Shown: positions 16,885 through 45,836 of the stretch, one piece after another | Position numbering within the stretch: position 1 is the first letter of the stretch | Layout: every line of letters starts with the position of its first letter | NCBI GenBank assembly: GCA_029938555.1 | Contig: JAOZUR010000011.1 | Coordinates: 12,327-58,408, forward strand | Reading direction: 5' to 3' | Length of the DNA: 46,082 nucleotides | Source of the DNA: Candidatus Sabulitectum sp. | GTDB lineage: Bacteria > Fermentibacterota > Fermentibacteria > Fermentibacterales > JCC-6 | Translations under genes and position numbers: made by a program | Notes under the pieces: model-generated | The model's input: the letters and a program-made list of their open reading frames with translations, nothing else | The model's database searches: none | What the model was told of the DNA's origin: nothing

Positions 16885-18035
16885 AAAAGTCTCCTCGGAA
16901 TGCTTTCCAACTCAGCAAGTACGCTACACCCTACACCTTTTCCCTTGGCAAGGTCACCGATGGTATTAGTTGTTGTCCCCTTAATCCAGATATTATCCAC
17001 AGGTATTTCTGTTATTTCAGATAATCTGTTCATAAGCAATTCTCTTACAGGTGAAATCTTGGGCCTTTCTCCAATAATAGTCACGTCGAGCCTGCTTATC
17101 TTCCATCCAGCCTCGGAAATTTTTGAAACACAGATGGAAAGAAGTTTTGAACTGTCTGCGTCTTTCCACTTTGAGCCAACAGGAGGAAAAAGAGTACCTA
17201 TATCTCCTAATCTTGATGCAGAAAGAATTGCATCTGCCACAGCATGAAGCACAACATCTCCATCAGAGTGCCCCATAAGACCATTAGTTTCAGACAGTTT
17301 GCATCCACAAAAATAGAGAGGTCTTTCAGGGGCAAAAGGATGGAAATCAAGGCCTGTGCCAATAACTCTCACCTGTTTTTCTTTAAAAAATGAAAGCAAT
17401 TCAGCGTCCTCTCTGTCGGTCAGTTTAATATTAGTTCGAGAGCCTTTTACGGTAAAAACACTCAACCCTGCTGCTTCAAAAGCGGCAGCTTCATCAGTTA
17501 CATCTTCCGCAGTAATCAGAACCTCAATTAGTTTTTTCAGATGAAAAGCTTGTGGTGTCTGACTGAGTTTGAGTTCCTCTCTGTTAAGTGTTTCCAGAAC
17601 AATATTGCCACTAACTCTTTTCAGTGTATCTCTCACTGGTATAACAGGAATAACTGCAGCATTTTCTATGGAAGCTTCCATAACTCTTTTGATGCTAGCC
17701 GGATCTACATTAGGACGGGCTCCATCATGTATAAGAACATGCGTAACACCCTGAGTCATCATGTATTTAAGCCCATTCATCACAGAATCTTGTCGTCGCT
17801 CTCCACCAGGCACGGTTTTCAAAGAAGTAGATGGTTTCCACCATTTAGACCAATCTTGTGGTGGAGTTACCACCACAAGAAAATCAACAAATGGCTTTAA
17901 AATTCCAACAGAAAAATCAACCACAGGCTCGCCTGCAAGCAAAGTAAATTGCTTGGGTATATCACCACCAAATCTTGACCCCGCCCCAGCAGCCACTATT
18001 ACTGCACCCCAGATAGGGTTATCAGTCTTGTCCAT
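16881..18035 (-). CDS. ispDF: Bifunctional IspD-IspF (MEP pathway)
   Basis: Fusion of 2-C-methyl-D-erythritol 4-phosphate cytidylyltransferase (IspD, about 1-215) and 2,4-cyclodiphosphate synthase (IspF, about 222-384), steps three and five of non-mevalonate isoprenoid synthesis. IspD shows VIVAAGAGSRFG...PKQF, VLIHDGARP and TDEAAAFEAAG. IspF shows GTGLDFHPF (metal-binding Asp and His), GHSDGDVVLHAVADA, ADSSKLL, TIIGERPKI and KGTTTNTIGDLAKGKGVGC. The ATG at 18035, with CCGGAG close upstream, is preferred to an upstream TTG because the IspD core starts a few residues later. Such fusions are known in alphaproteobacteria and others. It overlaps the PIN/TRAM gene by 14 bp and dedA by 4 bp. Confidence 0.95.
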   Translation of the reverse strand: MDKTDNPIWGAVIVAAGAGSRFGGDIPKQFTLLAGEPVVDFSVGILKPFVDFLVVVTPPQDWSKWWKPSTSLKTVPGGERRQDSVMNGLKYMMTQGVTHVLIHDGARPNVDPASIKRVMEASIENAAVIPVIPVRDTLKRVSGNIVLETLNREELKLSQTPQAFHLKKLIEVLITAEDVTDEAAAFEAAGLSVFTVKGSRTNIKLTDREDAELLSFFKEKQVRVIGTGLDFHPFAPERPLYFCGCKLSETNGLMGHSDGDVVLHAVADAILSASRLGDIGTLFPPVGSKWKDADSSKLLSICVSKISEAGWKISRLDVTIIGERPKISPVRELLMNRLSEITEIPVDNIWIKGTTTNTIGDLAKGKGVGCSVLAELESIPRRLL

Positions 18036-19035
18036 TATCTCCGGTTCCTTCAGCTGCCAATTTTGCAAATACCATTGTGCCGCCCTTGGCGCGGAATGTG
18101 GTGTGAGTAGTTACTTGAGTTTCTTTTCCAAGTAAATCGCCTGCTTCATCCACAACAACCATTGTTCCATCTGAAAGAAATCCCACTCCCTGGCTGGAAG
18201 TTCTGCCTTTTTTCTGAATTCTTAACAAAAATGTATCTCCTGGAAGCACAACTTCACGAGAAGCAGGCCCCACATCGGAAAGTCGAATAACCCTAATACC
18301 TTCTCGTTCAGCAGTATCAGCCATTTCATTATCACCTGTAAGCAGACATACCCTTTCCTTGCGAAGCCATTCAAGAATGCGATGCTTTTCTCTTTCGCCT
18401 TCTCCAAAATCACGGTATTCCATAAGTCCACCGGATTTACCTACTGCTTCTTCAAGGCGTTCAATGGTCTCGGTGGCTCTTCTGGCTCGTCCACGCTTAA
18501 CTACATTTCGCCCTTTCTGCATCTCATCAATATTCTGCTTCACCGATAGTGGAATAGAAAATGGTCCCGGTAAAAGACCTGCTAAAGAAAGATCAGCAAC
18601 CCTTCCATCAACAGCAGCAGAAAGATCCACAAGAACAGGCATATTAAACTGAGGGCCACTTTCGTCTTCAATGGCGATTAGCTCTAGTTTTCTTCCTTTG
18701 TTTACAGCCACAACTGCAAATACATAAGCAAATGCAATTGGAATAAGAACAAGCAAATCAGACCAGCCTGGTTCCCAATTTTCATGATGAGTTCCTATTT
18801 TCAGAACAAGAATAAAAAGAATACCTACAATAAGACCAATGGTAGAACCTGCAGTAAGATAAATTAGTTTATCCGCAGATACTTTAACAATCATTCTTTC
18901 AAAAACCGCAGCAATCACTCCAATACCAAGACCAATGAAACCTATATGATATTCACCTGAAGCAAGAGTTCCTGCTAGACCCAGGGCAAGAATAAATAAA
19001 ATGCGCCCTTCCCAGCCTTTTCCTAACTTAACCAT
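18022..19035 (-). CDS. PIN/TRAM-domain membrane-anchored protein (YacL-like)
   Basis: 337 residues: four N-terminal membrane helices (to about 105), a PIN nuclease domain (about 130-270) and a C-terminal TRAM RNA-binding domain (about 275-330). PIN acids are visible in VLVDLSAAVDGRVADL and VCLLTGDNEMADTA, matching the YacL pattern VDTSAIIDGR and TNDYNL; here the Thr after the first Asp is Leu. Family members are thought to be membrane-bound ribonucleases. The order radA, PIN/TRAM, ispD, ispF matches that found in Firmicutes (radA-disA-yacL-ispD-ispF) but without disA. The ATG at 19035 has AAGGAGAAG just upstream. It overlaps radA by 13 bp and ispDF by 14 bp. Confidence 0.92.
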   Translation of the reverse strand: MVKLGKGWEGRILFILALGLAGTLASGEYHIGFIGLGIGVIAAVFERMIVKVSADKLIYLTAGSTIGLIVGILFILVLKIGTHHENWEPGWSDLLVLIPIAFAYVFAVVAVNKGRKLELIAIEDESGPQFNMPVLVDLSAAVDGRVADLSLAGLLPGPFSIPLSVKQNIDEMQKGRNVVKRGRARRATETIERLEEAVGKSGGLMEYRDFGEGEREKHRILEWLRKERVCLLTGDNEMADTAEREGIRVIRLSDVGPASREVVLPGDTFLLRIQKKGRTSSQGVGFLSDGTMVVVDEAGDLLGKETQVTTHTTFRAKGGTMVFAKLAAEGTGDNGQD

Positions 19036-21756: not shown

Positions 21757-22464
21757 CTATTCTCCAGACTCCCGGGGCAACCGGGCCGTTTCTAAAAATG
21801 CTCTTAACTTTTTCATGTCTTCCCAGACCGGCCTTTTCAGAGCAGGCGACCTAAGTAGCGCAGATGGATGATAAGTTACAAGAACCGGAATATCTTTATA
21901 ACTATGAAAACCCTCTCGAAGCAAACCAATTCCTGTTTTAGTATTCAACAGTGTTCTTGCAACAACTGCCCCTAAGGCTATAATTATTCCGGGATTCATT
22001 ATGGCTATCTGCTGCTCTAGAAATTTGCTACAACTCGCTGTCTCTGAAGCAGAAGGAACTCTGTTATTGATAGAATGGCATTTCACCATATCTGTGATGA
22101 ACAGTTTCTCTCGATTCAGATCAACGGATCCCAGTATTTTGTCAAACAACAATCCAGCTTCACCTGTAAAAGATTTACCCGTTTCGTCTTCTGTAGTTCC
22201 TGGATTATCACCAACCACCAATATGCCTGATTCAGGGTTGCCTGTGCCAAATACAACATTCTTTCTTGTTTCTGCAAGCTTGCATTCCTGACAACTCAAT
22301 AGTTGATTCTCAAGAAAAGCCATTCCCGCCACAATTCCTTCAGGTGCTGAAATCGGTTCTTTTTTTTCCGATATACTCTTCTTAACCCATTCCGGCAGCA
22401 CAAAAACCTGATCTACACCGAAACTTTCAACTACTGCCCAAAATGGATCTTTGACTTCAGCCAT
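21757..22464 (-). CDS. udg: Family 4 (type 4) iron-sulfur uracil-DNA glycosylase
   Basis: Removes uracil from DNA to start base-excision repair. 235 residues. The four [4Fe-4S] cysteines are in the expected pattern: C58 and C61 (LLSCQECKLAE), C129 and C145 (VKCHSINNRVPSASETASC). Motif 2 HPSALLRSP is present at 199-207. Motif 1, normally GEAPG, is GDNPG (85-89), so the first acidic residue is Asp instead of Glu. An extra ~40-residue N-terminal lead precedes the core. The start ATG lies inside the last codons of the gmk-coaB gene (8 bp overlap) with GGGAG upstream. Family assignment is firm. Confidence 0.92.
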   Translation of the reverse strand: MAEVKDPFWAVVESFGVDQVFVLPEWVKKSISEKKEPISAPEGIVAGMAFLENQLLSCQECKLAETRKNVVFGTGNPESGILVVGDNPGTTEDETGKSFTGEAGLLFDKILGSVDLNREKLFITDMVKCHSINNRVPSASETASCSKFLEQQIAIMNPGIIIALGAVVARTLLNTKTGIGLLREGFHSYKDIPVLVTYHPSALLRSPALKRPVWEDMKKLRAFLETARLPRESGE

Positions 22465-23740
22465 TGTTCAAAATCTCCCTTCCTAAGGCAGCTGTTATAC
22501 CAAATGCGACAAATTTCTTTGAACCTAAAGGTATTTCAATATCCTCACTACCGGAAGCAAACAAAAGCATTCCAGAGTTACAAGCGGTTTCCATTCCAAT
22601 TCCTGGTTTATCGCCTCTGTTTAGAAAAATAAACGATGATTTTTTTCGTTTCATTTTGAGTCTGGCATTCTCTACAGCGTCATCTCCATATTCCAAAGCA
22701 AAAGACAATACATTACATGAGGAATTAAGAGATGCAGTAATATCAACAGTAGGTTCAAGATCCAAATTCAATCTGTTACCCTGCCTTTTGATTTTGCCTG
22801 TAACTGAAGAAACTGGGGCAAAATCAGATACAGCTGCTGCCATAACAAGTAAATCTGCATCCTTAATTTCTTTCTGAAGAGATAACAGCATATCCTCTGC
22901 GCTTTCAACTTTCACAAGGCGAACAGGGCCTGGAGGTTTCATATTAAATGCAGGACCACTGACAAGAACAACATCAGCGCCAGCAGACAAAAAAGCTTCT
23001 GCCAGCGAAACACCCATTAATCCACTGGATCGGTTTGAAACAAATCTGACATCATCTATTTTTTCACGGGTAGGCCCAGAAGAAACAACAATACGCTTGC
23101 CGGCCCAAAAACTAAGCCCATCCATATAGCCGGAGTGATAATCAAGAGCTTGATCAGGCCATCCTATATTCTGTATTTTCATTTTTTCAGCAAGATAAAT
23201 ACTTTCAATATCAATTTTTGCCTGTGCTAAAATATTATTGCAAATAAAGTAATCAAAAACACCCATGAAAGAAACTTCTCCAGCAGCAGCTTTCATTCGC
23301 TTCTCTACTGTTTTCCCAGAATCTGTATTTCGTTGTTCTAACCGTTTACGAAGCAAATCGTTACTGGCTGGAAGCACAAAGATTAGAACCGCTGAAGGCA
23401 TTTTCTCTTTGATCTGCACTGCTCCTTGAACATCAATATCAAGAATAACACTTCGGCCTTTGACCATCTGTTGGCGAACCCAAGAGCTTTCAGTTCCGTA
23501 CTTGTTGCCGTGAACATCAGCCCATTCGAGGAAATATGATTTCTCAATCCTTTGCTGAAACTCATCTTTACTTACAAAAAAATAATCTTTTCCGTTTACT
23601 TCCTCGCCTCTAGCAGGCCTTGTGGTTGTGGAAACAGAAAAATGAACTCCATCAAGTTTATCAACAAGAGAATGGGCAAGAGTTGTTTTTCCAGCACCAG
23701 ACGGCCCTGCAAGAACAAAAAGCATTCCGCTATTGAACAT
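22457..23740 (-). CDS. Guanylate kinase fused to phosphopantothenoylcysteine synthetase (Gmk-CoaB)
   Basis: A 427-residue two-domain enzyme. Residues ~5-190 are a complete guanylate kinase: P-loop GPSGAGKTTL, GKDYFFVSKDEF, ADVHGNKYGT, ILDIDVQGA and the lid RNTDSGKTVEKRM; it makes GDP from GMP. Residues ~213-420 are a CoaB-type synthetase: VVSSGPTREKIDDVRFVSN, RSSGLMGVSLAEAF, MAAAVSDFAP, GKIKR and FALEYGDDAVENARLKMKRK; CoaB joins cysteine to phosphopantothenate using CTP. The CoaC decarboxylase half of normal CoaBC is absent. In many bacteria gmk-rpoZ-coaBC are adjacent genes downstream of yicC, so this looks like a fusion across that locus with rpoZ and coaC lost or moved. The ATG at 23740 has GCAGGTGG upstream and overlaps yicC by 11 bp. 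Some late CoaB motifs are weak. Confidence 0.88.
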   Translation of the reverse strand: MFNSGMLFVLAGPSGAGKTTLAHSLVDKLDGVHFSVSTTTRPARGEEVNGKDYFFVSKDEFQQRIEKSYFLEWADVHGNKYGTESSWVRQQMVKGRSVILDIDVQGAVQIKEKMPSAVLIFVLPASNDLLRKRLEQRNTDSGKTVEKRMKAAAGEVSFMGVFDYFICNNILAQAKIDIESIYLAEKMKIQNIGWPDQALDYHSGYMDGLSFWAGKRIVVSSGPTREKIDDVRFVSNRSSGLMGVSLAEAFLSAGADVVLVSGPAFNMKPPGPVRLVKVESAEDMLLSLQKEIKDADLLVMAAAVSDFAPVSSVTGKIKRQGNRLNLDLEPTVDITASLNSSCNVLSFALEYGDDAVENARLKMKRKKSSFIFLNRGDKPGIGMETACNSGMLLFASGSEDIEIPLGSKKFVAFGITAALGREILNNG

Positions 23741-24596
23741 TAGCCACCTGCTCGCGCAGACCGCCAAGAATGTCTTTCATTTCTATAACTTTATGTACTG
23801 CCTCAGAATTATCTACTTTGGAACCCATTGTATTCAGCTCTCTGTGCATCTCCTGCAAAATAAAACCAAGCTTTCTACCACAATCGTTTTCTGAGAGTAC
23901 TTTCAGACCTGATTGAATGTGCGCATCAAGTCTTTGGGATTCTTCTGATATATCAATTCGGTCTGACAATATGGCCATTTCCTGTGCTAGTCTAGTTTCA
24001 TCCAATGAAGGATTTTCAATCAATTCTGATATTCTCTTTTTTCTTTCTGAGAAAATTAACTGAACCCGCTGTTTGTGCCCGAGCGAAACCGGTAAAGAAA
24101 GCTCACCTATCAATTTAAGATTATTGGTAAACATCAAAGAAAGCCCTTCACCTTCATTTCTCCGAGAAATCAATAACTCCTGAAATGCTTTTTCCACAGC
24201 ATTTATCAGATTATCATCAAACCCATCACCTGCTGATATGTCTGGTACACGCATCATGCCGGAAAGGGTAACAAGCCTAAAGGCATCAGGACTGGAAGTA
24301 AGAAAGAATTCTTTTGCCAGCTTATCTGCCCCATCAAGGTAGGCACGAGCCAGTGTTATGTCTGGTTCTGGAAGAATACCACCAGAATCTGATTCAACTG
24401 ATACATTCACATCTATACGCCCTCGAGAAAAAAGTTCTTTTCCCCGTCTGTAAAGAGCTTGCTCTAGATGCGCTGCTTCCCGTGGCATTCTAAAATTTAA
24501 ATTAAGGCCTTTATTGTTTACTGACTTCACCAGAACTGTAATCTTATATTTATCAACAACTTGTGAACTATTTCCAAAACCTGTCATAGATTCCAT
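23730..24596 (-). CDS. yicC: YicC/YloC-family endoribonuclease-like protein
   Basis: 288 residues, the usual length. Diagnostic N-terminus SMTGFGNSSQ, then VKSVNNKGLNLNFRMPRE (family: EIRSVNHRYLEVxxRLP), and C-terminal RLDAHIQSGLKVLSENDCGRKLGF, LQEMHRELNTMGSKVDNSE (broken here at a comma) with IEMKDILGGLREQVANVQ ending in the family's typical E-x-x-REQVQNIE. E. coli YicC is reported as an endoribonuclease acting on RyhB. The ATG at 24596 (MESMTGFG) is preferred to one 12 codons earlier because GAGGGG is nine bases upstream and family members start with the same few residues. First gene of the ~12 kb minus-strand run; yicC followed by gmk is a widely conserved order. Confidence 0.95.
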   Translation of the reverse strand: MESMTGFGNSSQVVDKYKITVLVKSVNNKGLNLNFRMPREAAHLEQALYRRGKELFSRGRIDVNVSVESDSGGILPEPDITLARAYLDGADKLAKEFFLTSSPDAFRLVTLSGMMRVPDISAGDGFDDNLINAVEKAFQELLISRRNEGEGLSLMFTNNLKLIGELSLPVSLGHKQRVQLIFSERKKRISELIENPSLDETRLAQEMAILSDRIDISEESQRLDAHIQSGLKVLSENDCGRKLGFILQEMHRELNTMGSKVDNSEAVHKVIEMKDILGGLREQVANVQ

Positions 24597-34413: not shown

Positions 34414-34913
34414 TTAATTTTAAATACATTTCAGCCACTGCGCTACTTCTTATCATTTTGTGTTTCGCCGGTTGCAAAGAAGAAGATACGCCTGCTGACA
34501 CCGTTGCTACAGAAACAATTTCAATTCTTTCAGTACCTGGCGTGATCAGCCTTCCAGATTCAGATGGTTTTGTATCAATGGAAGAAAGCGAACATGAAGT
34601 AATCCTTCTATACTGCTGGTTACCTATTGGGGAATATCCGGAAAACGATGGAGATCTTACATTCCTGTCATCATTAAATGAGAGGGGCGTAACCGCTGTT
34701 CCAATCCAATTCAATACTACAGTGCGAAATGCAGCTCAAACTCAACTGAATTCAATGGATATTTCTTTAAGTGTAGCCCTTGGAGATGAAACACTTAAAG
34801 ATTTCCTCGTGACCGATAACCTACCTGTAGCTACCCTTGTTCATGCAAATGGTACTGTTGTTTCTGCATACGGATTTGGCTGTGCCGAAAGGGTTCTCCG
34901 GGGAATTCAGTGA
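34410..34913 (+). CDS. Lipoprotein with weak thioredoxin-like features
   Basis: 167 residues. The signal sequence ends in a lipobox (LCFAGC, Cys at about 22), so it is predicted to be a lipid-anchored periplasmic protein. The mature part has a loosely thioredoxin/redoxin-like pattern: EVILLYCWLPIGEYPENDGDL, LNERGVTAVPIQFN, VALGDETLKDFLVTDNLPVATLVHANGTV, with a cis-Pro-like LP. The CxxC redox pair is missing (only YCW). It could be a non-catalytic redoxin-fold protein or a partner for thiol chemistry; fold assignment is an inference. Overlaps both neighbours by 4 bp. Confidence 0.65.
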   Translation: MINFKYISATALLLIILCFAGCKEEDTPADTVATETISILSVPGVISLPDSDGFVSMEESEHEVILLYCWLPIGEYPENDGDLTFLSSLNERGVTAVPIQFNTTVRNAAQTQLNSMDISLSVALGDETLKDFLVTDNLPVATLVHANGTVVSAYGFGCAERVLRGIQ

Positions 34914-35629
34914 ACCATTATTTCATAAGTGATACGCATCTGTACCCTATTGGGAAAACACATCCAGGTAGACAACCTTTAAAGAATTTTTTAAAGGAAT
35001 TGTCGTGCTTAGAGCCAGGCAAATTATGGATTTTGGGTGATTTATTCGATTACTGGTTTGAGTACAAAACAGTAATTCCATCTGGATTTTCTGATATACT
35101 TTCTCTTTTAAAAAATTTATCGGAAAACAAATGGCAGGTCTTTTTTTTGCCGGGAAACCATGACTGGTGGTGCGGCCATAACCTTGAAGCTGAAACTGGA
35201 ATGAAGATAATTTATCAAAGAACCTATTGTGAAGAAATTAATGGCAAAAAAACTATTCTTGCCCATGGAGATGGGCTTGGCTCTGGCGACAAAAGTTACA
35301 AACTCATGAGACCATTTATAAGGTCAGCTCCGGTTACATTTCTTTTTTCCATGGTTCACCCCACAATAGCAACAGCTCTTGCTAAACTTTTTTCTCATAC
35401 CAGTAAAAGAGTTCTTCGCAAACAAGTTGATTACATTCCTGATTATTTGACTGAATGGGTTCTAAATCAAGCAGACAAAGGTATAGAACTTGTTGTCACA
35501 GGACATACGCATTGTCCTTCTATTACAAACCACGAAAACATTATTCATGTATCACTTGGCGACTGGATAAACCACTTCACATACTTGAAGGTAAGCGAAG
35601 GAGAAATAAAGCTATATGAATATCAATAA
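34910..35629 (+). CDS. lpxH: UDP-2,3-diacylglucosamine diphosphatase-like phosphoesterase (LpxH family)
   Basis: 239 residues, calcineurin-like metallophosphatase. Metal motifs: FISDTHL, GDLFDYWFEY, LPGNHDWW, LAHGDGL and VTGHTHCP, in the order and spacing of LpxH, which hydrolyses UDP-diacylglucosamine to lipid X in lipid A synthesis at the inner membrane. The GDLFDxWxxY block and the length match LpxH/LpxH2. It starts with GTG overlapping the lipoprotein stop (GTGA). Other lpx genes are not in the window, so a role on a different nucleotide-linked lipid or sugar in this locus is possible. Confidence 0.85.
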   Translation: MNHYFISDTHLYPIGKTHPGRQPLKNFLKELSCLEPGKLWILGDLFDYWFEYKTVIPSGFSDILSLLKNLSENKWQVFFLPGNHDWWCGHNLEAETGMKIIYQRTYCEEINGKKTILAHGDGLGSGDKSYKLMRPFIRSAPVTFLFSMVHPTIATALAKLFSHTSKRVLRKQVDYIPDYLTEWVLNQADKGIELVVTGHTHCPSITNHENIIHVSLGDWINHFTYLKVSEGEIKLYEYQ

Positions 35630-36548
35630 TAAAATATTAATTACCGTTGTAATTCCCGTGTACAATGAAGCCGAAAGTCTTCAAGAACTATTAATGGAAA
35701 TCAGCACAGCCTTAAGTGGTAAGAATTGGAATGCTGTTGTAATTGATGACGGCAGCAACGACGGAACATGGAATATTATTTCTCAGTTATCTGAAGAATA
35801 TCCACTGAAAGGGTTAAGGTTTGGCGCCAACCGCGGTAAAGCAGCGGCTCTTGCGGCAGGGTTCAATGAAGCAGATGGAGAATTCATTAGCACCCTTGAT
35901 GGTGACCTTCAAGATGACCCTGCTGAAATTCTACCTATGATCAAAAAAATGAAAAAAGATCATCTTGATTTAATTAGTGGTTGGAAAAAGGTGCGTCATG
36001 ACCCTGCTGGAAAAAGACTCCCATCTAAAGTGTTCAACAGTGTTGTAGGGCTTACAACTGGAATTCATCTTCATGATTTCAATTGCGGGTTAAAAGTATA
36101 CAGAAGTGCTGCTGCAAAAACTCTTGAACTTTATGGTGAGATGCACAGATATACACCTGTTCTAGCTTTTCGAAACGGTTTTAAAGTTGGCGAAAAAGCT
36201 GTAAATCACAGGGTTCGCAAACACGGTTACAGTAAATACGGGCTAGCCAGATTTTTTCGAGGATACACAGATCTAATCACAGTACTTTTCCTCGGTCGTT
36301 ACTCGTACCGCCCACTGCATTTTTTTGGTGGAATAGGCACAATTCTTTCCTTTGCCGGTTTTGCCATAAATGTTTACATGTCCATACTCTGGCTTGGTGG
36401 CCAGTCTATTGGTAACAGGCCATTACTTCTCATGGGTGTATTCCTTATGCTGGCAGGTTTCCAGTTTATATCAATGGGGCTGCTTGGGGAAATGATCCTT
36501 AGGTTTAACCCTCGGAAACCATACACTATCACATCACAGACAAAATGA
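35616..36548 (+). CDS. GT2 glycosyltransferase, polyprenyl-phosphate type
   Basis: 310 residues. GT-A domain at 1-230: TVVIPVYNEAESL, VIDDGSNDGTW, GANRGKAAALAAGF, and the metal-binding TLDGDLQDDP; then RVRKHGYSKYG and two C-terminal membrane helices (FGGIGTILSFAGFAINVYMS; LLMGVFLMLAGFQFISMGL). This layout is that of DPM1/GtrB-like enzymes that move a sugar from a nucleotide donor to undecaprenyl phosphate on the cytoplasmic face. Such a lipid-linked sugar would be the natural donor for a GT-C protein like the YfhO homologue in this operon. Start ATG at 35616 overlaps lpxH by 14 bp. Confidence 0.9.
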   Translation: MNINNKILITVVIPVYNEAESLQELLMEISTALSGKNWNAVVIDDGSNDGTWNIISQLSEEYPLKGLRFGANRGKAAALAAGFNEADGEFISTLDGDLQDDPAEILPMIKKMKKDHLDLISGWKKVRHDPAGKRLPSKVFNSVVGLTTGIHLHDFNCGLKVYRSAAAKTLELYGEMHRYTPVLAFRNGFKVGEKAVNHRVRKHGYSKYGLARFFRGYTDLITVLFLGRYSYRPLHFFGGIGTILSFAGFAINVYMSILWLGGQSIGNRPLLLMGVFLMLAGFQFISMGLLGEMILRFNPRKPYTITSQTK

Positions 36549-37606
36549 GAATTGTTCTTTTAAGCCCTCTTCCACCTTACCGTGGAGGGATTGCACAATT
36601 TGGGAAAATGCTACTTACCGGATTGGAAAAAGAAGATTGTGAAGTAACAGCTATTAACTACTCACACCTTTACCCTAATTTTCTTTTCCCAGGCAAAACC
36701 CAATTTGAAGATGGTTTTAGCTCAGCAGATGGATTATTACATGCTTATCAACCTTTTTCTTGGAAAAAAACAAGAGAATCAATAGACAAAATGAAACCTG
36801 ATATTATTATTTCTCAGTGGTGGCATCCATTTTTTGCCAAATGTCTTTCTGCTGTTAATCCAGGCCATTCAAAATCTGTATCAATCTGTCACAATGTATT
36901 TCCCCATGAATCCTTTCCGCTGGCAGGTTATCTTTCAAGAAAATTCTTCCGCAAACAGGACTTGATGGTGGTTCATTCAGAAAAAGCCGAGATTGAAGCA
37001 GAATCAACAGGAAAAAAAGTATTAAGGTTGTTTCATCCGATTTATGATCAGTACAAAAACACCGGCCTTCCTAGAGAGCAGGCAAGAAACAAACTTGGCT
37101 TGAAAACCGGTCAGAAAGCTCTTCTTTTTTTCGGCCTAGTAAGAGATTATAAAGGTTTTGATGTTCTTCTTAAAGCTTGTGACCTACTTCCGGAAGAATA
37201 CACAATTATTGCCGCAGGTGAAAATTACACCAACACGAATTACCAATCTTCTAGACTTTTATGGGAAAATTCATTCATTCCTGATTGTGATGTTGGTACC
37301 TGGTTCAATGCAGCAGATATTGTTGTTTTACCTTACAGAAAAGCTTCCCAAAGTGGAATTGCTCAAATAGCACTTGCTTTCAACAAACCTATGGTTGTAA
37401 CAGACACAGGTGGTCTTGCAGAAACAGTTGTTCCGTGCAAAACTGGAACAATTGCAGCTGAAGCAACTGCTGAAAGCATTTCAAAAGCCATACTCCAGTG
37501 TTCCAGCCTTATGAACTCAAAAATCACCACAACAGAAATCAGGAAGAAAGCTTCAGAATTCTCGTGGTCATCTTATGTTAAAAAATTAATTGGAGCTGTT
37601 CAATGA
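36545..37606 (+). CDS. GT4-family glycosyltransferase
   Basis: 353 residues, GT-B fold. N-terminal half: LSPLPPYRGGIAQFGKMLL (acceptor side), WHPFFAKCLS, CHNVFPHE. C-terminal half: ALLFFGLVRDYKGFDVLL (donor site), ADIVVLPYRKASQSGIAQIA (EX7E-like region; first acid position is not a clear Glu) and VVTDTGGLAETV. Cytoplasmic or membrane-associated sugar transfer, probably onto a lipid-linked acceptor; substrate unknown. It overlaps both neighbours by 4 bp. Confidence 0.9.
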   Translation: MRIVLLSPLPPYRGGIAQFGKMLLTGLEKEDCEVTAINYSHLYPNFLFPGKTQFEDGFSSADGLLHAYQPFSWKKTRESIDKMKPDIIISQWWHPFFAKCLSAVNPGHSKSVSICHNVFPHESFPLAGYLSRKFFRKQDLMVVHSEKAEIEAESTGKKVLRLFHPIYDQYKNTGLPREQARNKLGLKTGQKALLFFGLVRDYKGFDVLLKACDLLPEEYTIIAAGENYTNTNYQSSRLLWENSFIPDCDVGTWFNAADIVVLPYRKASQSGIAQIALAFNKPMVVTDTGGLAETVVPCKTGTIAAEATAESISKAILQCSSLMNSKITTTEIRKKASEFSWSSYVKKLIGAVQ

Positions 37607-38481
37607 AGATTTTTCTTACAGGTAGCTCTGGTTTTATCGGTGGATATATAAAAAAGGCGGCAGAAAAAGCCGGTCACTCTGTTGTAACACACAGTTTTTC
37701 CAAACAAGGAGTTTTCTCTGTACTTCCTTCTGGAATAGATCTAGCAATAAACAGTGCTGGAAGACTAGGCGGACAGGGTGCTTCCATTGATGAATTGAAT
37801 GCAGCCAATGTACAACTTCCCCTAACCATGAGTTTACAGTGCAAATTAGCTGGAATTCCCTTAATTCATCTTAGTACACCTGGCGTAACAGGTCTTACTG
37901 CGGACAGCAAAGAAACCCACAAATATGATCCTTTAGGCGATTACGAGTTATCAAAAGTCAAAGCTGAAAAACAACTGCTAAACTCTTGTCCTAAAGTCAC
38001 TATTCTCAGACCAGACTTTGTATTCGGACCTGGAGACATGCACAAATTTCCACTGTTTCGACAAGCTAGTAAAGGATGGTTCCCCCTGGTGGGCAAAGGG
38101 GATGCCAGAACGAGACCTACAGATGTAAGAGATGTAGCCGAAGCAGTGCTTAATAGTTTTCCCGGCAAGCCTTTACATCAGGGAATTTACAACATTGGTG
38201 GACCAGAAATTCTTTCAGTACGCGAATTGGTTTTCATGATTTCTGTTGCACTGGGTAAATCAGTGCAGTTTATTCCAATCCCTCATTTTGTTTTTAAAAC
38301 AGCTTTGTCACTGGGCCCTCTGTGTCCCAATGCTCTTTCCCAAAGCAGGTACAATCTTTTTGGAATGGATAGATTCTGTAATACAAACAAAGCAAAGAAA
38401 AAAGGTTTTGCAGCTTCGCACACCTTCAGCATCACAGCCATAGAAGCGGTAAACTGGTACACAAAGCAGGGATTATTGTGA
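37603..38481 (+). CDS. NAD(P)-dependent sugar epimerase/dehydratase-like (extended SDR)
   Basis: 292 residues. Rossmann glycine motif TGSSGFIGG at 6-14, INSAGRLGGQ, IHLSTPGVTG, catalytic YxxxK (Y114, K118 in DYELSKVKAEK), ILRPDFVFGPGDMHKF and RPTDVRDVAEAVLN. These are standard for UDP-glucose 4-epimerase-like or NAD-dependent nucleotide-sugar reductases. Likely supplies or modifies a nucleotide sugar for the glycosyltransferases beside it. Overlaps both neighbours by 4 bp. Confidence 0.88.
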   Translation: MKIFLTGSSGFIGGYIKKAAEKAGHSVVTHSFSKQGVFSVLPSGIDLAINSAGRLGGQGASIDELNAANVQLPLTMSLQCKLAGIPLIHLSTPGVTGLTADSKETHKYDPLGDYELSKVKAEKQLLNSCPKVTILRPDFVFGPGDMHKFPLFRQASKGWFPLVGKGDARTRPTDVRDVAEAVLNSFPGKPLHQGIYNIGGPEILSVRELVFMISVALGKSVQFIPIPHFVFKTALSLGPLCPNALSQSRYNLFGMDRFCNTNKAKKKGFAASHTFSITAIEAVNWYTKQGLL

Positions 38482-39392
38482 CCGGAAAAAAAATCACTTT
38501 AATATCAAAAATCCTTCTGTTTTTAGTTGCAACTATTGCTGTTTTTCTTATATGGAAAAACGGTGGTGTCTGGTATGAAGAAATCCACAAACATCAGTGG
38601 AATTTGAATATAGGTCAACTTGTGACTTCCGCAGTTCTGCTTACTTTTTCCTTAGTCTTGACCCCATCTACATGGGTATTGATATGCAGATCAATGGGCT
38701 CAAAAGTACCTGGCAAAGAATTGTTTGCCGCATGGTATTCAAGTCAACTTGGTCGGTATATACCTGGAAAAATCTGGTTGTTCGCAGGCAGAGCTGGTTT
38801 TTTAAAAGCAAATGGAATGAAAATAGGCAGAGCAGCAGCTACCACTGTTTATGAATTGTTTTTTTCTGTAGCATCAATTGGCCTTATTGTGATAATACTC
38901 GCACTGACCTCCCCTGAAATATTCCAGCAAACTGGAGGTCAAATTCCTGCAATAATCGCTTCATCATTTGTTTTTCTTCTTCCTCTTCTTCATCCTGTAC
39001 AAAACTATTTTTGCAGAAGAAAAGGGATTGATCCAGATTTTCTTCCAACTGTTAACACAACCATAACAGCTACTCTTATATTTTCCTCGTTATGGTTGAT
39101 AAGAGGGTTATCTCTTTTCCTTCTTCTGAAAGGTGCAGGGTTGAACAATATTTACTTTTCTTACTCTGTTGCAGCAGCACCACTATCATGGCTGGCTGGT
39201 TATGTTGCATTTTTCGTTCCAGGTGGTATTGGTGTGAGAGAGGCTGCAGCTGCTGCCATAGCAGCACCTTTACTTATCTCTCCTGCAGCTGTTGTTATTG
39301 CAGGACAACGAATTTTCATGGCGATTATAGAAGTATTTCTAGCTCTGTTAAGCACAGGAAAACTAAAATTCAATTCTAAGCAGGAGGAATAA
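38478..39392 (+). CDS. AglD/MprF N-domain-like membrane protein (UPF0104, lysylphosphatidylglycerol synthase TM family)
   Basis: 304 residues, about eight membrane helices. Family motifs: SSQLGRYIPGKIWLFAGRAGF (conserved G-x-Y-x-P-G-K), GAGL, and FVPGGIGVREAAAAA (P-G-G-I/L-G-x-x-E). Related domains flip lipids in MprF and act in archaeal N-glycosylation (AglD); here there is no soluble synthase domain. It is a clear paralogue of the first ~320 residues of the protein at 41670-43775. Probably moves or helps move a glycolipid (inference). GTG start at 38478 overlaps the epimerase stop. Confidence 0.88.
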   Translation: MTGKKITLISKILLFLVATIAVFLIWKNGGVWYEEIHKHQWNLNIGQLVTSAVLLTFSLVLTPSTWVLICRSMGSKVPGKELFAAWYSSQLGRYIPGKIWLFAGRAGFLKANGMKIGRAAATTVYELFFSVASIGLIVIILALTSPEIFQQTGGQIPAIIASSFVFLLPLLHPVQNYFCRRKGIDPDFLPTVNTTITATLIFSSLWLIRGLSLFLLLKGAGLNNIYFSYSVAAAPLSWLAGYVAFFVPGGIGVREAAAAAIAAPLLISPAAVVIAGQRIFMAIIEVFLALLSTGKLKFNSKQEE

Positions 39393-41669
39393 GTGTATAT
39401 GCTCAAAAATGAAAAAACTATTCTGGGAATAACACTAATTCTTCTGTCAGTTCTAACATACTGGACTATTTTTACAACTTCCCGCCTGCCTGGCGGTGAT
39501 ATGAGTGATACTGTCAGCCAGGGTTATCCTTTTTTCTCGTACACAGAAAGTCGTCTTTCGCAAGGCGAACTTCCACTGTGGAATCCATACATTTTCTGCG
39601 GTATACCATTTTATGAATCCTTTAGTGCACCGGTATTTTATCCGCTGCGCGGCCTGCCCATGGTACTTTTTGGTTCCGAGATTGCCATTAGATTCCTTTT
39701 TCCAGTACACCTTATTATGGCAGGATTTTTCGCATGGCTTTTTCTTAAATCAGTTGGTGTTTCTAGATGGGGCTCACTTGTTGGAGCTTTTGCTTATGCC
39801 TCAGGTGCTTGGGCGAACACGCTTTTTTATGCCGGCCACGGAAGCAAAATTATATGCTGGGCATGGCTGCCACTGCTTTTGTGGGCTGTGGTAAAATGGG
39901 CTGAAAAAAGAGACAGCAGATACATCGCTACAGGTGCCATAGCCATTGGAATGCAAGGATTATCAAGCCATCCTCAAATGATTCTTTATTCAGCTGGTTT
40001 TGCTCTAATTCTTGCTCTTTTTCTAATTAAGAAACCTTCTGTAAAATCCATTTCATTAAACATTGGTGGACTTACCGCCATTATACTTCTGGGTTCAGCG
40101 CTTGCAGCAATACAGCTTTATCCCGGCTTTAAATTCAGTGAATTCACTTCAAGAGGCGAAGATTTATCTCTGGACGCTGCATCAAGTTATTCCCTTGCAC
40201 CAGAAGAATCTCTTACCATGCTTCTTCCTGGAATGTTTGGATTAAGACATGGTTTCCCTGATAGTTCAGTGAGTGGAATACCAGTTTACTTCGGCAGACT
40301 TGGGTTAAGGCTTTCAAGTGAATTTATGGGTGTAGCATTTTTTATTCTTGGTATGGCTGGGCTTATTTTAGGCAAAAATAGAAAAGTAAAATTTGCCCTG
40401 ATAGCGATTGCTCTTACAGGCACAATAGTATCCTGGGGTGGTTACACCCCTGTGTTTGCTGTTCTTTACAAGGTTTTCCCTATTTTTCGGAAACTCAGGG
40501 CTCCTCACATGGCGGCATTTGTAACAACATCCTCTATTGCACTTGCTTCAGGAATGGGATTTGACGCTTTGTTTACAGGGCAACTTAATTCCCAAAAACT
40601 AAAAAAAGTCTTTATCACGCTTTCAGGATTTTCAGCCCTATTCCTAGTTCTAATGTTGGCAGCAAACCCTGTATCAAGATCTCTTCAGGCATCTTGGTGG
40701 GCAAAAGCTGGAATAACAAATACAGCCCAGTTCGGAGCTGTGATAACACAAAGAGTTTCCCTACTCTTTACGGATTTTTTAAGGGTATTTACGGTTTCAG
40801 CTATCTTGGCTGCTCTGGTTTTTGTTATAAAAAAAGGCAAAGGTTCTGTTTGGGTATTTGCCATGATAGTTATAATAATTTCATCTATTGAATTGATTCC
40901 TTTCAACAGAGATTTTCAGGTTTACCTTCCATCTACCACAATTGAATCCATGTTTCCTGATTCTCCTCTGTTAAGAGAAATGGCTGAAAACGGTCGTGTT
41001 TTCCCAGGTGGCAATGAACTTGTTCCCCTTGGAATCAGGTCTGTATACGGTTATCATGCTGCAAAACCTGCGGCAACAGACAGACTTATGGAACTTGTTC
41101 GTTCAGCGTCCCCCTGGGTATTAAGGCAAACGGGAATGACTGTTTATGCATCAAGTGAGGGCAATTTTAGCTGGGATGAGCTTCATCCAGCGCTTGCTGA
41201 GGGCATTCCAAATTATCCTGTAGATCCTATGCCAAGGGCTTTCATTGCAAGATCCGTTTTTTCTGGGTCAACCGAAGACGGTTTCCAAATTATCGAAGCT
41301 GGAATAGACCCTCAAATTCGATCAATTGTTGAAGATTCTCCGCAAACTTATGACGGAGTCACAGGTACTGCAGATATCATTATTGATCTTCCTGAAACTG
41401 TTACAATACAAACAAATACATCTGGAGCAGGTTATTTAATATTAGCTGATTCATGGTATCCTAACTGGAGAGTAACCGTTGATGGAACCCCTCAAACAGT
41501 ATTCAGAGCAAATGGCTGGATGCGAGCTGTTCAGATTCCAGCTGGCCAACATACAGTTGAGTTTTCCTACAGCAACCATAATGTGATTCGTGGTGGTATA
41601 ATAAGTGGTGCTGCGATTCTACTAATTCTTCTGTTGTTTCTGTTTACTACAAAACGAAAAAAAGGCTAA
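39393..41669 (+). CDS. YfhO-family membrane protein (GT-C-like)
   Basis: 758 residues with about 12-14 membrane helices and a C-terminal extracytoplasmic beta domain. Diagnostic YfhO stretches: LWNPYIFCGIPFYESFSAPVF split around P-F near residues 60-80, GAFAYASGAWANTLFYAGHG, MQGLSSHPQMILYSAG, and the C-terminal DSWYPNWRVTVDGTP, RANGWMRAVQIPAGQHTVEF, followed by a last helix and basic tail TKRKKG. In Gram-positive bacteria YfhO is implicated in glycosylation of lipoteichoic acid using undecaprenyl-phosphate sugars. The GTG at 39393 has GGAGG five bases upstream and abuts the previous stop; an ATG two codons later is the alternative. Likely uses the product of the GT2 gene in this operon. Confidence 0.9.
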   Translation: MYMLKNEKTILGITLILLSVLTYWTIFTTSRLPGGDMSDTVSQGYPFFSYTESRLSQGELPLWNPYIFCGIPFYESFSAPVFYPLRGLPMVLFGSEIAIRFLFPVHLIMAGFFAWLFLKSVGVSRWGSLVGAFAYASGAWANTLFYAGHGSKIICWAWLPLLLWAVVKWAEKRDSRYIATGAIAIGMQGLSSHPQMILYSAGFALILALFLIKKPSVKSISLNIGGLTAIILLGSALAAIQLYPGFKFSEFTSRGEDLSLDAASSYSLAPEESLTMLLPGMFGLRHGFPDSSVSGIPVYFGRLGLRLSSEFMGVAFFILGMAGLILGKNRKVKFALIAIALTGTIVSWGGYTPVFAVLYKVFPIFRKLRAPHMAAFVTTSSIALASGMGFDALFTGQLNSQKLKKVFITLSGFSALFLVLMLAANPVSRSLQASWWAKAGITNTAQFGAVITQRVSLLFTDFLRVFTVSAILAALVFVIKKGKGSVWVFAMIVIIISSIELIPFNRDFQVYLPSTTIESMFPDSPLLREMAENGRVFPGGNELVPLGIRSVYGYHAAKPAATDRLMELVRSASPWVLRQTGMTVYASSEGNFSWDELHPALAEGIPNYPVDPMPRAFIARSVFSGSTEDGFQIIEAGIDPQIRSIVEDSPQTYDGVTGTADIIIDLPETVTIQTNTSGAGYLILADSWYPNWRVTVDGTPQTVFRANGWMRAVQIPAGQHTVEFSYSNHNVIRGGIISGAAILLILLLFLFTTKRKKG

Positions 41670-43775
41670 ATGCATAAGAATTCAAAATTTTATAAAATTC
41701 AAAACTGGGCAGGTCTAATACTACTCTTAGCTGCAGGGTATTATTTCTATTCTCAGTTACTGCCTGATTGGCAGCCAAAACTAGAAGAATTCTGGGCTAC
41801 TTCCAGGCAGGATGCCAGTAGACCATTAATGTTGCTATCTTTTGTGCTAGCGTGGTTCGGTTACTATTTTGCACCTCTTCCCTGGAAAAAGATTCTTGAA
41901 GCTCTAAAAGTTCCAAGAATTGATCGAGGCGAACTTCGAAGAAACTGGTACATCACGCAAATGGGCAGTTATATGCCAGGTAAACTCTGGATGGTCTTAG
42001 GAAGACTAACATTTCTCAAAATGAACGGTACTAGCACTTTCAAAGGTGTTACTGCCCTTATTCTTGAAAACATATACATGCTTATTGCCCTTGGAATACT
42101 AGCTCTTGTTGCTTTGCCCTTCCTAGGATCTGATCTTCCACCTGCGGTTACAATCGCACTGTGGATTTCAGCTGCTTTTGCTTTTCTTATGCTATTTGCA
42201 CCTGGATTACAGAAAGTCTTTGCAAAAAGAATGGCCAAAAATTTTGATGTGGATATGGAAGAGCTTCCTCACATAAGTCATAAAGACCAGTTCAAATTTA
42301 TTGGCGCTCATATTCTATCCTGGTCTCTTAGAAGTCTCGCACTATATGTATGGTTCAGAGGGTTTGGTGTTCCAGAATCTACCCCACCTGTTGCCATGGT
42401 GGCAGTATGTCTTCTTGCGGCTCCAGCATCTTGGTTGATAGCGCTGGTTATGGTTTTTATTCCTGGGGGAATTGGTGTAAGAGAATCAATCAGAGGTTTG
42501 TTTCTTGCTCCTTTTGTAGTTGGTGGCATGGCTGTAGCAACAACAATAGCCCTTGCACAACGAGCTGTTGTTATGCTTGTAGAAATACTTTTTGCACTTC
42601 AGGCAGTAATTTATCAATTCCTTTGTAAACATTTCCCAGTAAAGATGAACCATTTGAATCAACTCTCACACTTAAGCTGGAGTGCAATGCAGGCATGGTT
42701 TTGCAGGCACAATATGGCAAAACCTCCACATCCTATTAATGTTACTTTTTCAGTTACTGGAAGATGCCAATCCAGATGCAAAACCTGTTACATATGGAAA
42801 GACAAAGAACACAAGAACATTTCTGAAGACCTAAATCTTGTTACAATAGAACGACTATTTAGATCAATAGGTTGGACTTACTTTTTTAATGTCTCCGGTG
42901 GTGAACCGTTCCTTAGAAATGATCTTGCAGATATTGTAAGGCTGGCGTGCAAACACCTTAGACCGGCAGTTGTACACATTCCAACCAATGCTATAATGCC
43001 TGAAAAAATCGAGGCCACCACAAGAGAAATTCTTGAAATCATTCATCAGGAAGCTCCAGGCACCGTATTAACTATCAAACCGTCTTTTGATGGAATTGGT
43101 GATCAGCATGATGAGATTAGGGGTGTTCCTGGTAACTTCACCAAGCTTCTTGATACCTTGTCAAGACTCAAAATACTCAGAGATGAATTTGAATACCTTC
43201 ATGTAGGCGTGGGCACTGTTGTTTCTAAATTTAATCAGAACAGCCTTGAATCAATAATTGATTATGCAAGCACTCTAGGAGTTAATACCTACATCAATGA
43301 AGTTGCCGAGGAAAGGGAAGAATTCTTTAACCTAGGCAGTGGCATCACCCCTGACGAAGACAGTTATCGAAAAATCATGCTCACTTTCAAAGATAATGTT
43401 AGAGCAAGCATGAAAGGTATGAAACTTCTTTCAAGAATAACAACTGCAATGCGCTTAGTCTACTATGACCTTGCTGCTGATATTCTTAAAGAGAACAAAC
43501 AAGTTATCCCATGTTATGCCGGTATTCTTAATGTACACATCAATTCTGATGGTGGAATCTGGCCATGTGCGGTATTAGCCTACAACGGTCAGATGGGTAA
43601 AGTTGGTGAAAACTCTGATTTCCTGGAAGTATGGAATTCAAAAGAAGCAAACAATATAAGAAAAAGCATAAAAGCAGGCGAATGTGCCTGCCCGCTTGCC
43701 AATCAAGCATACTCAAATATAATTATGGACCCAAAGAGCCTTATGAAAACTATATGGATTGCCATAAAAGGTTAA
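41670..43775 (+). CDS. Fusion of flippase-like UPF0104 membrane domain with radical SAM/SPASM-like enzyme
   Basis: 701 residues. Residues 1-~320: about eight helices with the UPF0104 motifs QMGSYMPGKLWMVLGRLTF (98-116) and FIPGGIGVRES (263-273). Residues ~355-700: radical SAM enzyme with C366-x3-C370-x2-C373 (GRCQSRCKTCYIW), SGGEP (409-413), KPSFDG and GVGTVV; then a SPASM-like auxiliary cluster region with C615 (PCYAGILNVHINSDGG), C633 (WPCAVL) and C672/C674 (GECACP). By family knowledge the first Cys triplet holds the SAM-cleaving [4Fe-4S] cluster. The layout copies MprF (flippase plus cytosolic synthase) but with a radical SAM domain in place of the aminoacyl-tRNA-dependent synthase. It abuts the YfhO gene, so both are coexpressed. 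The substrate is unknown; a lipid-linked glycan or a peptide is possible. Confidence 0.92.
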   Translation: MHKNSKFYKIQNWAGLILLLAAGYYFYSQLLPDWQPKLEEFWATSRQDASRPLMLLSFVLAWFGYYFAPLPWKKILEALKVPRIDRGELRRNWYITQMGSYMPGKLWMVLGRLTFLKMNGTSTFKGVTALILENIYMLIALGILALVALPFLGSDLPPAVTIALWISAAFAFLMLFAPGLQKVFAKRMAKNFDVDMEELPHISHKDQFKFIGAHILSWSLRSLALYVWFRGFGVPESTPPVAMVAVCLLAAPASWLIALVMVFIPGGIGVRESIRGLFLAPFVVGGMAVATTIALAQRAVVMLVEILFALQAVIYQFLCKHFPVKMNHLNQLSHLSWSAMQAWFCRHNMAKPPHPINVTFSVTGRCQSRCKTCYIWKDKEHKNISEDLNLVTIERLFRSIGWTYFFNVSGGEPFLRNDLADIVRLACKHLRPAVVHIPTNAIMPEKIEATTREILEIIHQEAPGTVLTIKPSFDGIGDQHDEIRGVPGNFTKLLDTLSRLKILRDEFEYLHVGVGTVVSKFNQNSLESIIDYASTLGVNTYINEVAEEREEFFNLGSGITPDEDSYRKIMLTFKDNVRASMKGMKLLSRITTAMRLVYYDLAADILKENKQVIPCYAGILNVHINSDGGIWPCAVLAYNGQMGKVGENSDFLEVWNSKEANNIRKSIKAGECACPLANQAYSNIIMDPKSLMKTIWIAIKG

Positions 43776-45284: not shown

Positions 45285-45836
45285 ATGCAGATAAAAGATT
45301 TAGCAAAGACAAGAATTGGTCATTCATTCAGACACAAACTGGTCAATGACCCTGAGGGAAACACCAAAATAATACAACCGAAGAATATTTCTTCAACAGG
45401 TTTTCTCGATTTAAAAAACTATCCGCCAATTCAAACAAAGATTGTACCAAACAATCCATTAGCTACAGGTGAAGTTTTATTTCTAAACAAAGGAAGGTTT
45501 GTTGCAGCTATTTTTAACGAATCAGAACAAGAGTGCTGGACTACACCAGGCTCTGTAATAATTCTTACTCTAAACTCAACTAAAATCTTACCAGAATATC
45601 TTGCTCTTTACCTAAATTCTTCAAAAGGGCGACAAAAACTTAACAGAGTAACTGAATTTAGTTCAATTCCCTTTATCACAAGAACCAATTTGGAACGAAT
45701 AGATATTCCCATACCCTCCAAAGACAAACAGAAAAACCTCATTAATCTTATGAGCACAATTTCAAGATATGAAAAGTTAACAACAAGAAAAACTAATTTA
45801 CTTAAAAATATTCTTAATGCAAAATTGGAGTTTTAA
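45285..45836 (+). CDS. Half-size type I restriction-modification specificity subunit (HsdS-like, one target-recognition domain)
   Basis: 183 residues. One TRD (LAKTRIGHSFRHKLVNDPEG, IQPKNISSTGFLDL, EVLFLNKGRFVAAIF, PGSVIILTL, ILPEYLALYLNS, IPFITRTNLERIDIPIPS) followed by one helical conserved region (KQKNLINLMSTISRYEKL...). Normal HsdS has two TRDs and ~400 residues, so this half-subunit would dimerise to recognise a palindromic site (known for engineered and some natural half-S proteins). Strong ribosome-binding site GGAGG. It precedes hsdM by 2 bp, the reverse of the common order. Confidence 0.82.
   Translation: MQIKDLAKTRIGHSFRHKLVNDPEGNTKIIQPKNISSTGFLDLKNYPPIQTKIVPNNPLATGEVLFLNKGRFVAAIFNESEQECWTTPGSVIILTLNSTKILPEYLALYLNSSKGRQKLNRVTEFSSIPFITRTNLERIDIPIPSKDKQKNLINLMSTISRYEKLTTRKTNLLKNILNAKLEF

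Follow-up and report, generated by a model that had tools for sequence, protein, structure and literature searches.

Within a 46,082-nucleotide stretch of Candidatus Sabulitectum sp. (contig JAOZUR010000011.1; the window hereafter), one gene joins an N-terminal UPF0104 membrane domain, the family to which the flippase part of MprF belongs, to a C-terminal radical S-adenosylmethionine (SAM) domain, and this fusion is nearly phylum-wide in Fermentibacterota, where it has been undone at least once. The reading we favour, held tentatively and at not quite even confidence, is that the product is a membrane-bound radical SAM/Twitch enzyme inside a pathway that assembles a lipid-borne glycan, the lipid being polyprenyl phosphate or a glycolipid. 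A narrower form of it, in which the one chain is an 'edit and flip' machine whose Twitch radical SAM part edits a lipid-linked sugar and whose own UPF0104 domain carries it across the membrane, is possible, although we would sooner doubt than assume it. Among the papers listed by our searches of the open-access literature, none reports a radical SAM and UPF0104 fusion or its setting in title or abstract, InterPro and UniProt lying outside this search. The gene and its parts are arranged as follows:

41670-43775, forward strand: fusion gene, UPF0104 membrane domain plus radical SAM/Twitch domain (Pfam, full-length relatives, AlphaFold2 model)
41670-42635, forward strand: UPF0104 (LPG_synthase_TM) membrane domain, residues 1-322 (Pfam, hhalign to MprF)
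42483-42485 and 42561-42563, forward strand: Glu272 of the motif PGGIGVRE and Arg298 (invariance in fused rows; hhalign)
42645-42647, forward strand: junction Met326 (M-N-H), near the start of stand-alone relatives (Met in 26 of 29 fused genes, Val in 1)
42645-43772, forward strand: radical SAM/Twitch domain, residues 326-701 (Pfam, domain model, fold matches)
42765-42788, forward strand: CxxxCxxC with Cys366, Cys370 and Cys373 (identical in 38 of 38 aligned relatives)
43512-43691, forward strand: auxiliary-cluster motif C615-x17-C633-x38-C672-x-C674, Twitch type (identical in 38 of 38)

A single open frame with an ATG start encodes all 701 residues, and Pfam placed three domains in it above their cut-offs: LPG_synthase_TM (UPF0104, PF03706; residues 48-294, E 3.3e-14, 53.5 bits against 33.4), Radical_SAM (PF04055; residues 361-514, E 1.4e-10, 42.1 bits against 29.5) and SPASM (residues 615-674, E 1.3e-7, 32.3 bits against 21.5). 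The original prediction, made from the DNA letters, had put a membrane and a radical SAM part in one 701-residue frame and proposed a search for these three domains in one protein; both the frame and the domains were borne out. The same Pfam scan found no DUF2156 synthase domain. Among the best 25 of 40 NCBIfam matches none exceeded its cut-off (the best, PTO1314, reached 62.5 bits against 306) and the MprF family NF033480 was not listed, and the tetraether lipid synthase model NF045702 scored 41.8 bits against a cut-off of 450. The AlphaFold2 model of the whole protein, built on an alignment of 46 rows, had a predicted local distance difference test score (pLDDT) of 82 and a predicted TM-score (pTM) of 0.79; with it, Foldseek matched radical SAM enzymes (DesII, 1.1e-8) as well as the MprF cryo-electron microscopy structures 7duw (1.4e-4) and 7f47 (1.5e-4), the latter at low TM-scores of 0.26-0.31.

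Both parts lie in one frame in 35 of the 42 Fermentibacterota genomes searched, representing 7 of the 9 genera (in G041 and G024 the frame is cut at one end by the contig), and hence a sequencing error that joined two genes, which the original prediction had raised against itself, is rejected. The closest named relatives, at 88% identity, are from Candidatus Sabulitectum and other Fermentibacteraceae. In the eighth genus (G005) the gene lies on two contigs and is broken up by stretches of N; in G027 the fusion region (L065) shows a number of broken frames, a contig ends inside the gene in G035, and no orthologue was found in G019 and G021 (67% and 66% complete). G014 and G006 (the ninth genus) lack the fused membrane domain and have the radical SAM part alone, as stand-alone genes of ~379 and ~381 codons that occupy the same operon position and start at the junction near residue 326. 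Since the G014 genome is 98% complete in 40 contigs, the lack of the fused membrane domain there is not a gap.

In a tree of 49 radical SAM domains, those of Fermentibacterota grouped together (support 100/97) beside stand-alone relatives from G099 and the phylum of G075, with G014 nested among fused relatives and G006 in a polytomy at the base of the phylum. These placements indicate one fusion, one clear loss (G014) and one open case (G006, never fused or lost); the membrane part was added within Fermentibacterota to a stand-alone radical SAM family that is older. In the UPF0104 tree, 85% of bootstrap trees (branch support 80/83) united the fused domains, next to the UPF0104 proteins that stand alone in the same operon. 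Because the latter grouped in only 21% of bootstrap trees and have long branches, the sister relation is uncertain; duplication of UPF0104 and then fusion fits the tree within the limits set by those branches. Met326 may be a fossil start codon. A ribosome-binding-site motif precedes it in 2 of 29 fused genes by a low-powered test that detected one at 4 of 18 true ATG starts, so we leave undecided whether it is also an internal second start giving a soluble enzyme. An amphipathic-helix test of membrane binding by the stand-alone forms gave mixed, mostly non-significant results. In one locus an additional, shortened copy of the fused UPF0104 domain (L047:2984-3229, 46% identity) follows the YfhO gene and precedes the full fusion gene; it is either a partial tandem duplication or a remnant.

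Turning to the catalytic half, Cys366, Cys370, Cys373, Cys615, Cys633, Cys672 and Cys674 are invariant in all 38 aligned relatives, of which 30 are fused and 8 stand alone. The first three make up the CxxxCxxC that the original prediction had located at 366-373, and as in the family generally they are presumably the ligands of the SAM-cleaving 4Fe-4S cluster. With the model of this domain (pLDDT 79.7, pTM 0.84), Foldseek ranked SkfB, DesII, PqqE, BlsE, MoaA and anSME first. Its fold neighbours include the sugar or cyclitol enzymes DesII, BlsE, AbmM, BtrN and SpeY. The top matches are thus a mixture of sugar, nucleotide and peptide enzymes, by which the substrate is not decided. With SkfB, PqqE and anSME among the best of them, the radical SAM domain might modify a protein or peptide, the membrane domain only bringing the enzyme to the membrane; we consider this very improbable, since the N-terminal half is UPF0104 and not a peptide-binding domain, and the neighbours in several lineages are glycosyltransferases (precursor genes shorter than 80 codons lay outside the search).

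The remaining four cysteines keep the spacing C-x17-C-x37-39-C-x-C across the 38 relatives. SPASM proper has been described as seven cysteines, CX9-15GX4C-gap-CX2CX5CX3C-gap-C, holding two auxiliary clusters (PMC6231123), and Twitch as a truncated SPASM that binds one (PMC6231123, PMC9012708). The seven-cysteine motif was not found in the 701-residue protein, which has only four invariant C-terminal cysteines, although the Pfam SPASM model nevertheless exceeded its cut-off; given the Twitch definition, the sequence fits the four-cysteine Twitch form and not full SPASM. The positions that the original prediction had called SPASM-like are hence conserved throughout, but in a Twitch pattern. In CxxxCxxC and the Twitch-type four cysteines the protein resembles the Twitch enzymes BtrN, MoaA and SkfB and the fold neighbours DesII and BlsE (PMC6231123), but it differs from BtrN, MoaA and SkfB in its added membrane domain, and identities to its fold neighbours are 11-18% (Foldseek).

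The flippase domain of MprF comprises 13 transmembrane helices (TMs) in two subdomains, of which subdomain 1 is TM1-8 (PMC8131360). The membrane domain of the fusion protein, which had been predicted as complete and of flippase type, is complete as a Pfam UPF0104 domain but corresponds only to MprF subdomain 1. In a forced global hhalign profile alignment with four MprF proteins (E 9e-8), Glu272 aligns with the Glu of PGGxGVFE, a motif of MprF, and Arg298 with the Arg in a following helix. Arg221, Glu272 and Arg298 are present in 30 of 30 fused rows, and PGGxG..E is invariant in all 27 rows of the UPF0104 alignment, 13 of them fused. For the Rhizobium tropici protein, residue roles are described for Glu280 and Arg304, and Asp234, Tyr303 and Tyr307 bind the lipid head group (PMC8131360). 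We take Glu272 and Arg298 to be the counterparts of the MprF gate pair Glu280/Arg304, the R. tropici numbering being carried over through the motif and not by aligning that sequence itself. By the same numbering the head-group residues Asp234, Tyr303 and Tyr307 are not kept, but correspond to Ser217, Gln297 and Val301. It is plausible that the fused UPF0104 domain is the translocase part of the protein, but not for the MprF lipid. A sequence search for a structurally solved UPF0104 relative returned none.

The MprF analogy is therefore fair as anatomy and fails as membership. As in MprF, an N-terminal UPF0104 membrane domain precedes a C-terminal enzyme presumed cytosolic, the gate Glu/Arg and PGGxG..E align, and the Foldseek matches to the two MprF structures agree with the MprF-like architecture first proposed. 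Unlike in MprF, a radical SAM/Twitch domain replaces the DUF2156 synthase, subdomain 2 is absent, the head-group residues differ, the gene sits in a glycan operon and the fusion is not obligatory. The MprF model had no match at 1e-30 in the window's genome (G000). Separate frames in two genomes of the same genus (G032:C119:3340-4323 and G038:C74:3233-4207) match only the synthase half (~515-837) of the MprF model. A phospholipid substrate, that is, a true MprF-like modification of head group or acyl chain by radical chemistry, seems improbable to us: it would agree with UPF0104 being an MprF subdomain and with the weak similarity, in sequence (2.5e-4) and fold (2.0e-5), of the radical SAM part to the tetraether lipid synthase GDGT-MAS, but the MprF head-group residues are lost, the cluster is composed of glycan genes, and several sugar or peptide enzymes are closer in fold than GDGT-MAS.

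Upstream of the fusion gene lie the following genes:

34910-35629, forward strand: LpxH-like phosphohydrolase, overlapping the next gene (NCBIfam PRK05340, 7.4e-33, 113.7 bits, below the cut-off of 134)
35616-36548, forward strand: family 2 glycosyltransferase (GT2) of the polyprenyl-phosphate glycosyltransferase type, ArnC/PgfS/AglJ-like (Pfam 1.7e-28; NCBIfam PRK10714, ArnC, 1.1e-46, below cut-off)
36545-37606, forward strand: family 4 glycosyltransferase (GT4; Pfam Glycos_transf_1 1.8e-15; best NCBIfam match GlcN_PG_synth, 8.9e-13, far below cut-off)
37603-38481, forward strand: short-chain dehydrogenase/reductase (SDR) or NAD-dependent epimerase family (Pfam Epimerase 1.8e-16)
38478-39392, forward strand: stand-alone UPF0104 protein of 304 residues, paralogue of the fused membrane domain at 30% identity (Pfam 1.1e-11, over cut-off; tree)
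39393-41669, forward strand: YfhO-like membrane protein of 758 residues, GT-C type glycosyltransferase candidate (Pfam YfhO 1.2e-6, 27.7 bits, just below 28.5; NCBIfam PgfM2 3.3e-6, below cut-off)

From a gene of 167 codons at 34410 to the fusion, the genes of the window overlap or abut, and the fusion follows the YfhO-like gene without a gap. Gene order was counted in the 21 named loci, out of 33, with ~8 kb of upstream sequence. The order LpxH-like, GT2, GT4, SDR, UPF0104, YfhO-like, fusion was found in 19 of the 21 (in L066 with a stand-alone radical SAM gene in the last place), and SDR-UPF0104-YfhO in all 21, with L046 and L060 showing the order only from the SDR gene on. No deacetylase was found among the scanned operon proteins (Pfam, NCBIfam), and LpxC is present in the window's genome.

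The nearest functional parallels would be GpgSDF and HexSDF, along with archaeal UPF0104 neighbourhoods. GpgSDF (glucosaminyl-phosphatidylglycerol) and HexSDF (an aminohexosyl glycolipid) bring together a glycosyltransferase, a sugar deacetylase and a UPF0104 protein, and GpgF is annotated as UPF0104 with its flippase activity stated to be unverified (PMC12713373). The window shares with them a glycosyltransferase, a candidate editing enzyme and UPF0104, its GT4 having GlcN_PG_synth as best if distant NCBIfam match; it differs in that the editing enzyme would be a radical SAM protein and not a deacetylase, is fused to the flippase domain, and is accompanied by GT2, SDR and YfhO-like genes. The archaeal neighbourhoods contain STT3/PMT-like and AglD-like genes, AglD being a GT2 fused to UPF0104 (PMC5898192). 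There too UPF0104 makes up half of a protein with two domains that acts in lipid-linked glycosylation (PMC5898192), but the catalytic half of AglD is an N-terminal glycosyltransferase. In the CsbB/GtcA/YfhO system, a GT-A enzyme acting on polyprenyl phosphate is joined by a flippase and the GT-C protein YfhO (PMC8035078). The window likewise has a polyprenyl-phosphate-type glycosyltransferase, a flippase candidate and a YfhO-like protein, the first and last scoring below cut-offs, but its UPF0104 is not a GtrA-type flippase, GT4, SDR and radical SAM genes are added, and the genome is LpxC-bearing and not Gram-positive.

With a second UPF0104 gene in the operon, the fused domain might be mainly an anchor or docking platform beside the glycosyltransferases and the YfhO-like protein, the stand-alone UPF0104 doing the flipping. 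Consistent with this, G014 and G006 lack the fused domain and both retain the stand-alone UPF0104 gene, and the membrane part is the more variable of the two: between the window and L061 its identity is 40%, that of the radical SAM part 63%. Glu272 and Arg298 in every fused row and an invariant PGGxG..E would, however, be superfluous in a simple anchor, and we regard this alternative as unlikely.

Outside the phylum, the radical SAM family occurs without the membrane part. A 38-row profile searched against 385 genomes (threshold 1e-40, at most three candidates scored per genome) matched 85, of which 41 are Fermentibacterota and 44 belong to the 343 genomes outside the phylum. None of these 44 had the fusion; all align only from profile position 287 on, and the weaker matches include distant members of the family that are not orthologues. 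In three other phyla, which overlap with the set of 343, 1 of 1, 4 of 4 and 22 of 40 genomes matched, again without the membrane part. Of four long frames that might have hidden a fusion, one of them a 702-residue frame of a distant match in G148, the other three did not: the 750-residue frame of G110 (last 633 residues scanned) held only Radical_SAM and SPASM by Pfam, and those of G317 (670 residues) and G318 (666 residues) a C-terminal reductase and nothing further. The reductase-like FAD/NAD module of the G317 protein (PF00970, PF00175; L157:8115-10124) is perhaps its own electron supply.

We scanned 49 outside loci with hidden Markov models (HMMs) of the operon proteins. A GT4 orthologue (<= 1e-80) lay near the radical SAM gene in five loci from three families (L092, L096, L152, L153, L156) and a GT2 orthologue (<= 1e-100) in three (L096, L152, L156), all of family f72; YfhO-like genes occurred in two (L151, over the Pfam cut-off, and L167) and LpxH-like genes in two of one family (L154, L155). 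No UPF0104 gene was detected in the 49 loci by HMMs made from the two UPF0104 groups of Fermentibacterota, but these are insensitive, as they also miss L071, L072 and four MprFs. With a broader UPF0104 HMM and Pfam, L096, L152 and L156 each proved to have a UPF0104 gene (141-147 bits against 33.4). This count of three is a lower bound, since L073 escaped the broader HMM too; of 28 multi-pass frames in the outside loci that had no other assignment, the 17 covered comprised three UPF0104 proteins, 10 that are not and 4 of other Pfam families. In the f72 loci, which are of an unrelated lineage, UPF0104 (1.4-2 kb away), SDR, GT2 and GT4 genes come after the radical SAM gene on its strand, and this cluster is an unfused counterpart of the window's operon. 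Its UPF0104 is closer to other paralogues (L071, L072) than to the fused domain, and radical SAM and UPF0104 thus seem to have come together in a GT2/GT4/SDR cluster, or to have stayed together there, on more than one occasion. A start boundary near residue 325-350 in relatives, or relatives that always encode two separate proteins, had been named at the outset as evidence against a true fusion. This is borne out in part, by the separate genes of f72 and by the radical SAM genes of G014 and G006 that start at the junction, but most Fermentibacterota are fused. Judged from these neighbourhoods, the radical SAM family is older and wider than the fusion, with glycan and lipid enzymes as its repeated company.

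Another neighbour bears on the substrate. In 12 of the 19 loci from the phylum of G115 (L093, L120-L137), the gene immediately before the stand-alone radical SAM gene encodes a flavoprotein of the geranylgeranyl (GG) reductase family, so that the two form a conserved pair, and the two members of this family that were tested pass the NCBIfam TIGR02032 cut-off of 158.8: the direct neighbour in L128 (177 bits) and a second, non-adjacent copy in L120 (199.5 bits). The isoprenoid part itself (polyprenyl phosphate or another prenyl lipid), where GG reductases act elsewhere, might hence be the substrate, as the polyprenyl-phosphate type of the GT2 would also allow. However, no GG reductase over cut-off was found in the window's genome, none was found in 30 outside loci of other lineages (with an HMM built from the G115 phylum only), and the neighbours held in common with Fermentibacterota are glycosyltransferases. 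We think an isoprenoid substrate rather unlikely, if less so than a phospholipid.

Operon and relatives thus favour a lipid-linked glycan, or a glycolipid, over a phospholipid, and the modification and flipping of a lipid first proposed is plausible in that altered form. For the substrate, the reaction and flipping by the fusion protein we infer the following steps. The radical SAM domain, in the cytosol, would take a hydrogen atom from the sugar or the carrier lipid of a lipid-linked intermediate and change it, while the auxiliary cluster would accept or relay an electron. The edited lipid would then enter the cytosolic cavity of the UPF0104 domain, which would help to bring it into the outer leaflet; there the YfhO-like protein would pass the sugar to an envelope acceptor, perhaps lipid A or lipopolysaccharide because the cell has LpxC and the cluster an LpxH-like gene. 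The operon's stand-alone UPF0104 would move the same or another intermediate, and the two lineages represented by G014 and G006 could therefore manage without the fused membrane domain.

Several observations weigh against the favoured reading. The YfhO, LpxH, GT2 and GT4 assignments fall below curated family cut-offs. Fold rank, in models, cannot separate sugar from peptide enzymes, SkfB, PqqE and anSME standing equally high. MprF subdomain 2 (TM9-13), part of the periplasmic cavity of MprF, is absent from the fusion protein, and G014 and G006 indicate that one-chain coupling is not essential. Among the 49 outside loci, a clear GT4 orthologue is found in only five, and UPF0104 lies near the radical SAM gene in only three, of one family and with a different UPF0104 subfamily. 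The GG-reductase neighbour of the G115 phylum could fit an isoprenoid substrate.

Elsewhere in the window, a 436-residue frame (22457-23767, reverse strand) combines guanylate kinase (Pfam 1.4e-45) and the CoaB/DFP domain, which belongs to pantothenate metabolism (6.1e-53), a Gmk-CoaB fusion that is not known to have been described. A 395-residue frame (16881-18068, reverse strand) holds IspD and IspF (YgbB) domains, a bifunctional isoprenoid enzyme. Two adjacent, overlapping genes (6884-9931 and 9901-12918, reverse strand) encode proteins of ~1000 residues that are alike by eye and had no Pfam match at 1e-5, and a short type I restriction specificity (Methylase_S) protein lies near the window's end (45285-45836, forward strand).

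If the favoured reading is true, the logic of MprF and GpgSDF, in which a lipid is changed inside the cell and then flipped, would extend to radical chemistry. The fusion would also give a handle on an uncharacterised radical SAM family, the genes of which are often close to those of glycosyltransferases, and an unusual envelope sugar or lipid would be expected in this uncultured phylum. The narrower one-chain reading, if true, would place radical chemistry inside a lipid translocase and make that widespread family one of lipid-linked glycan assembly.

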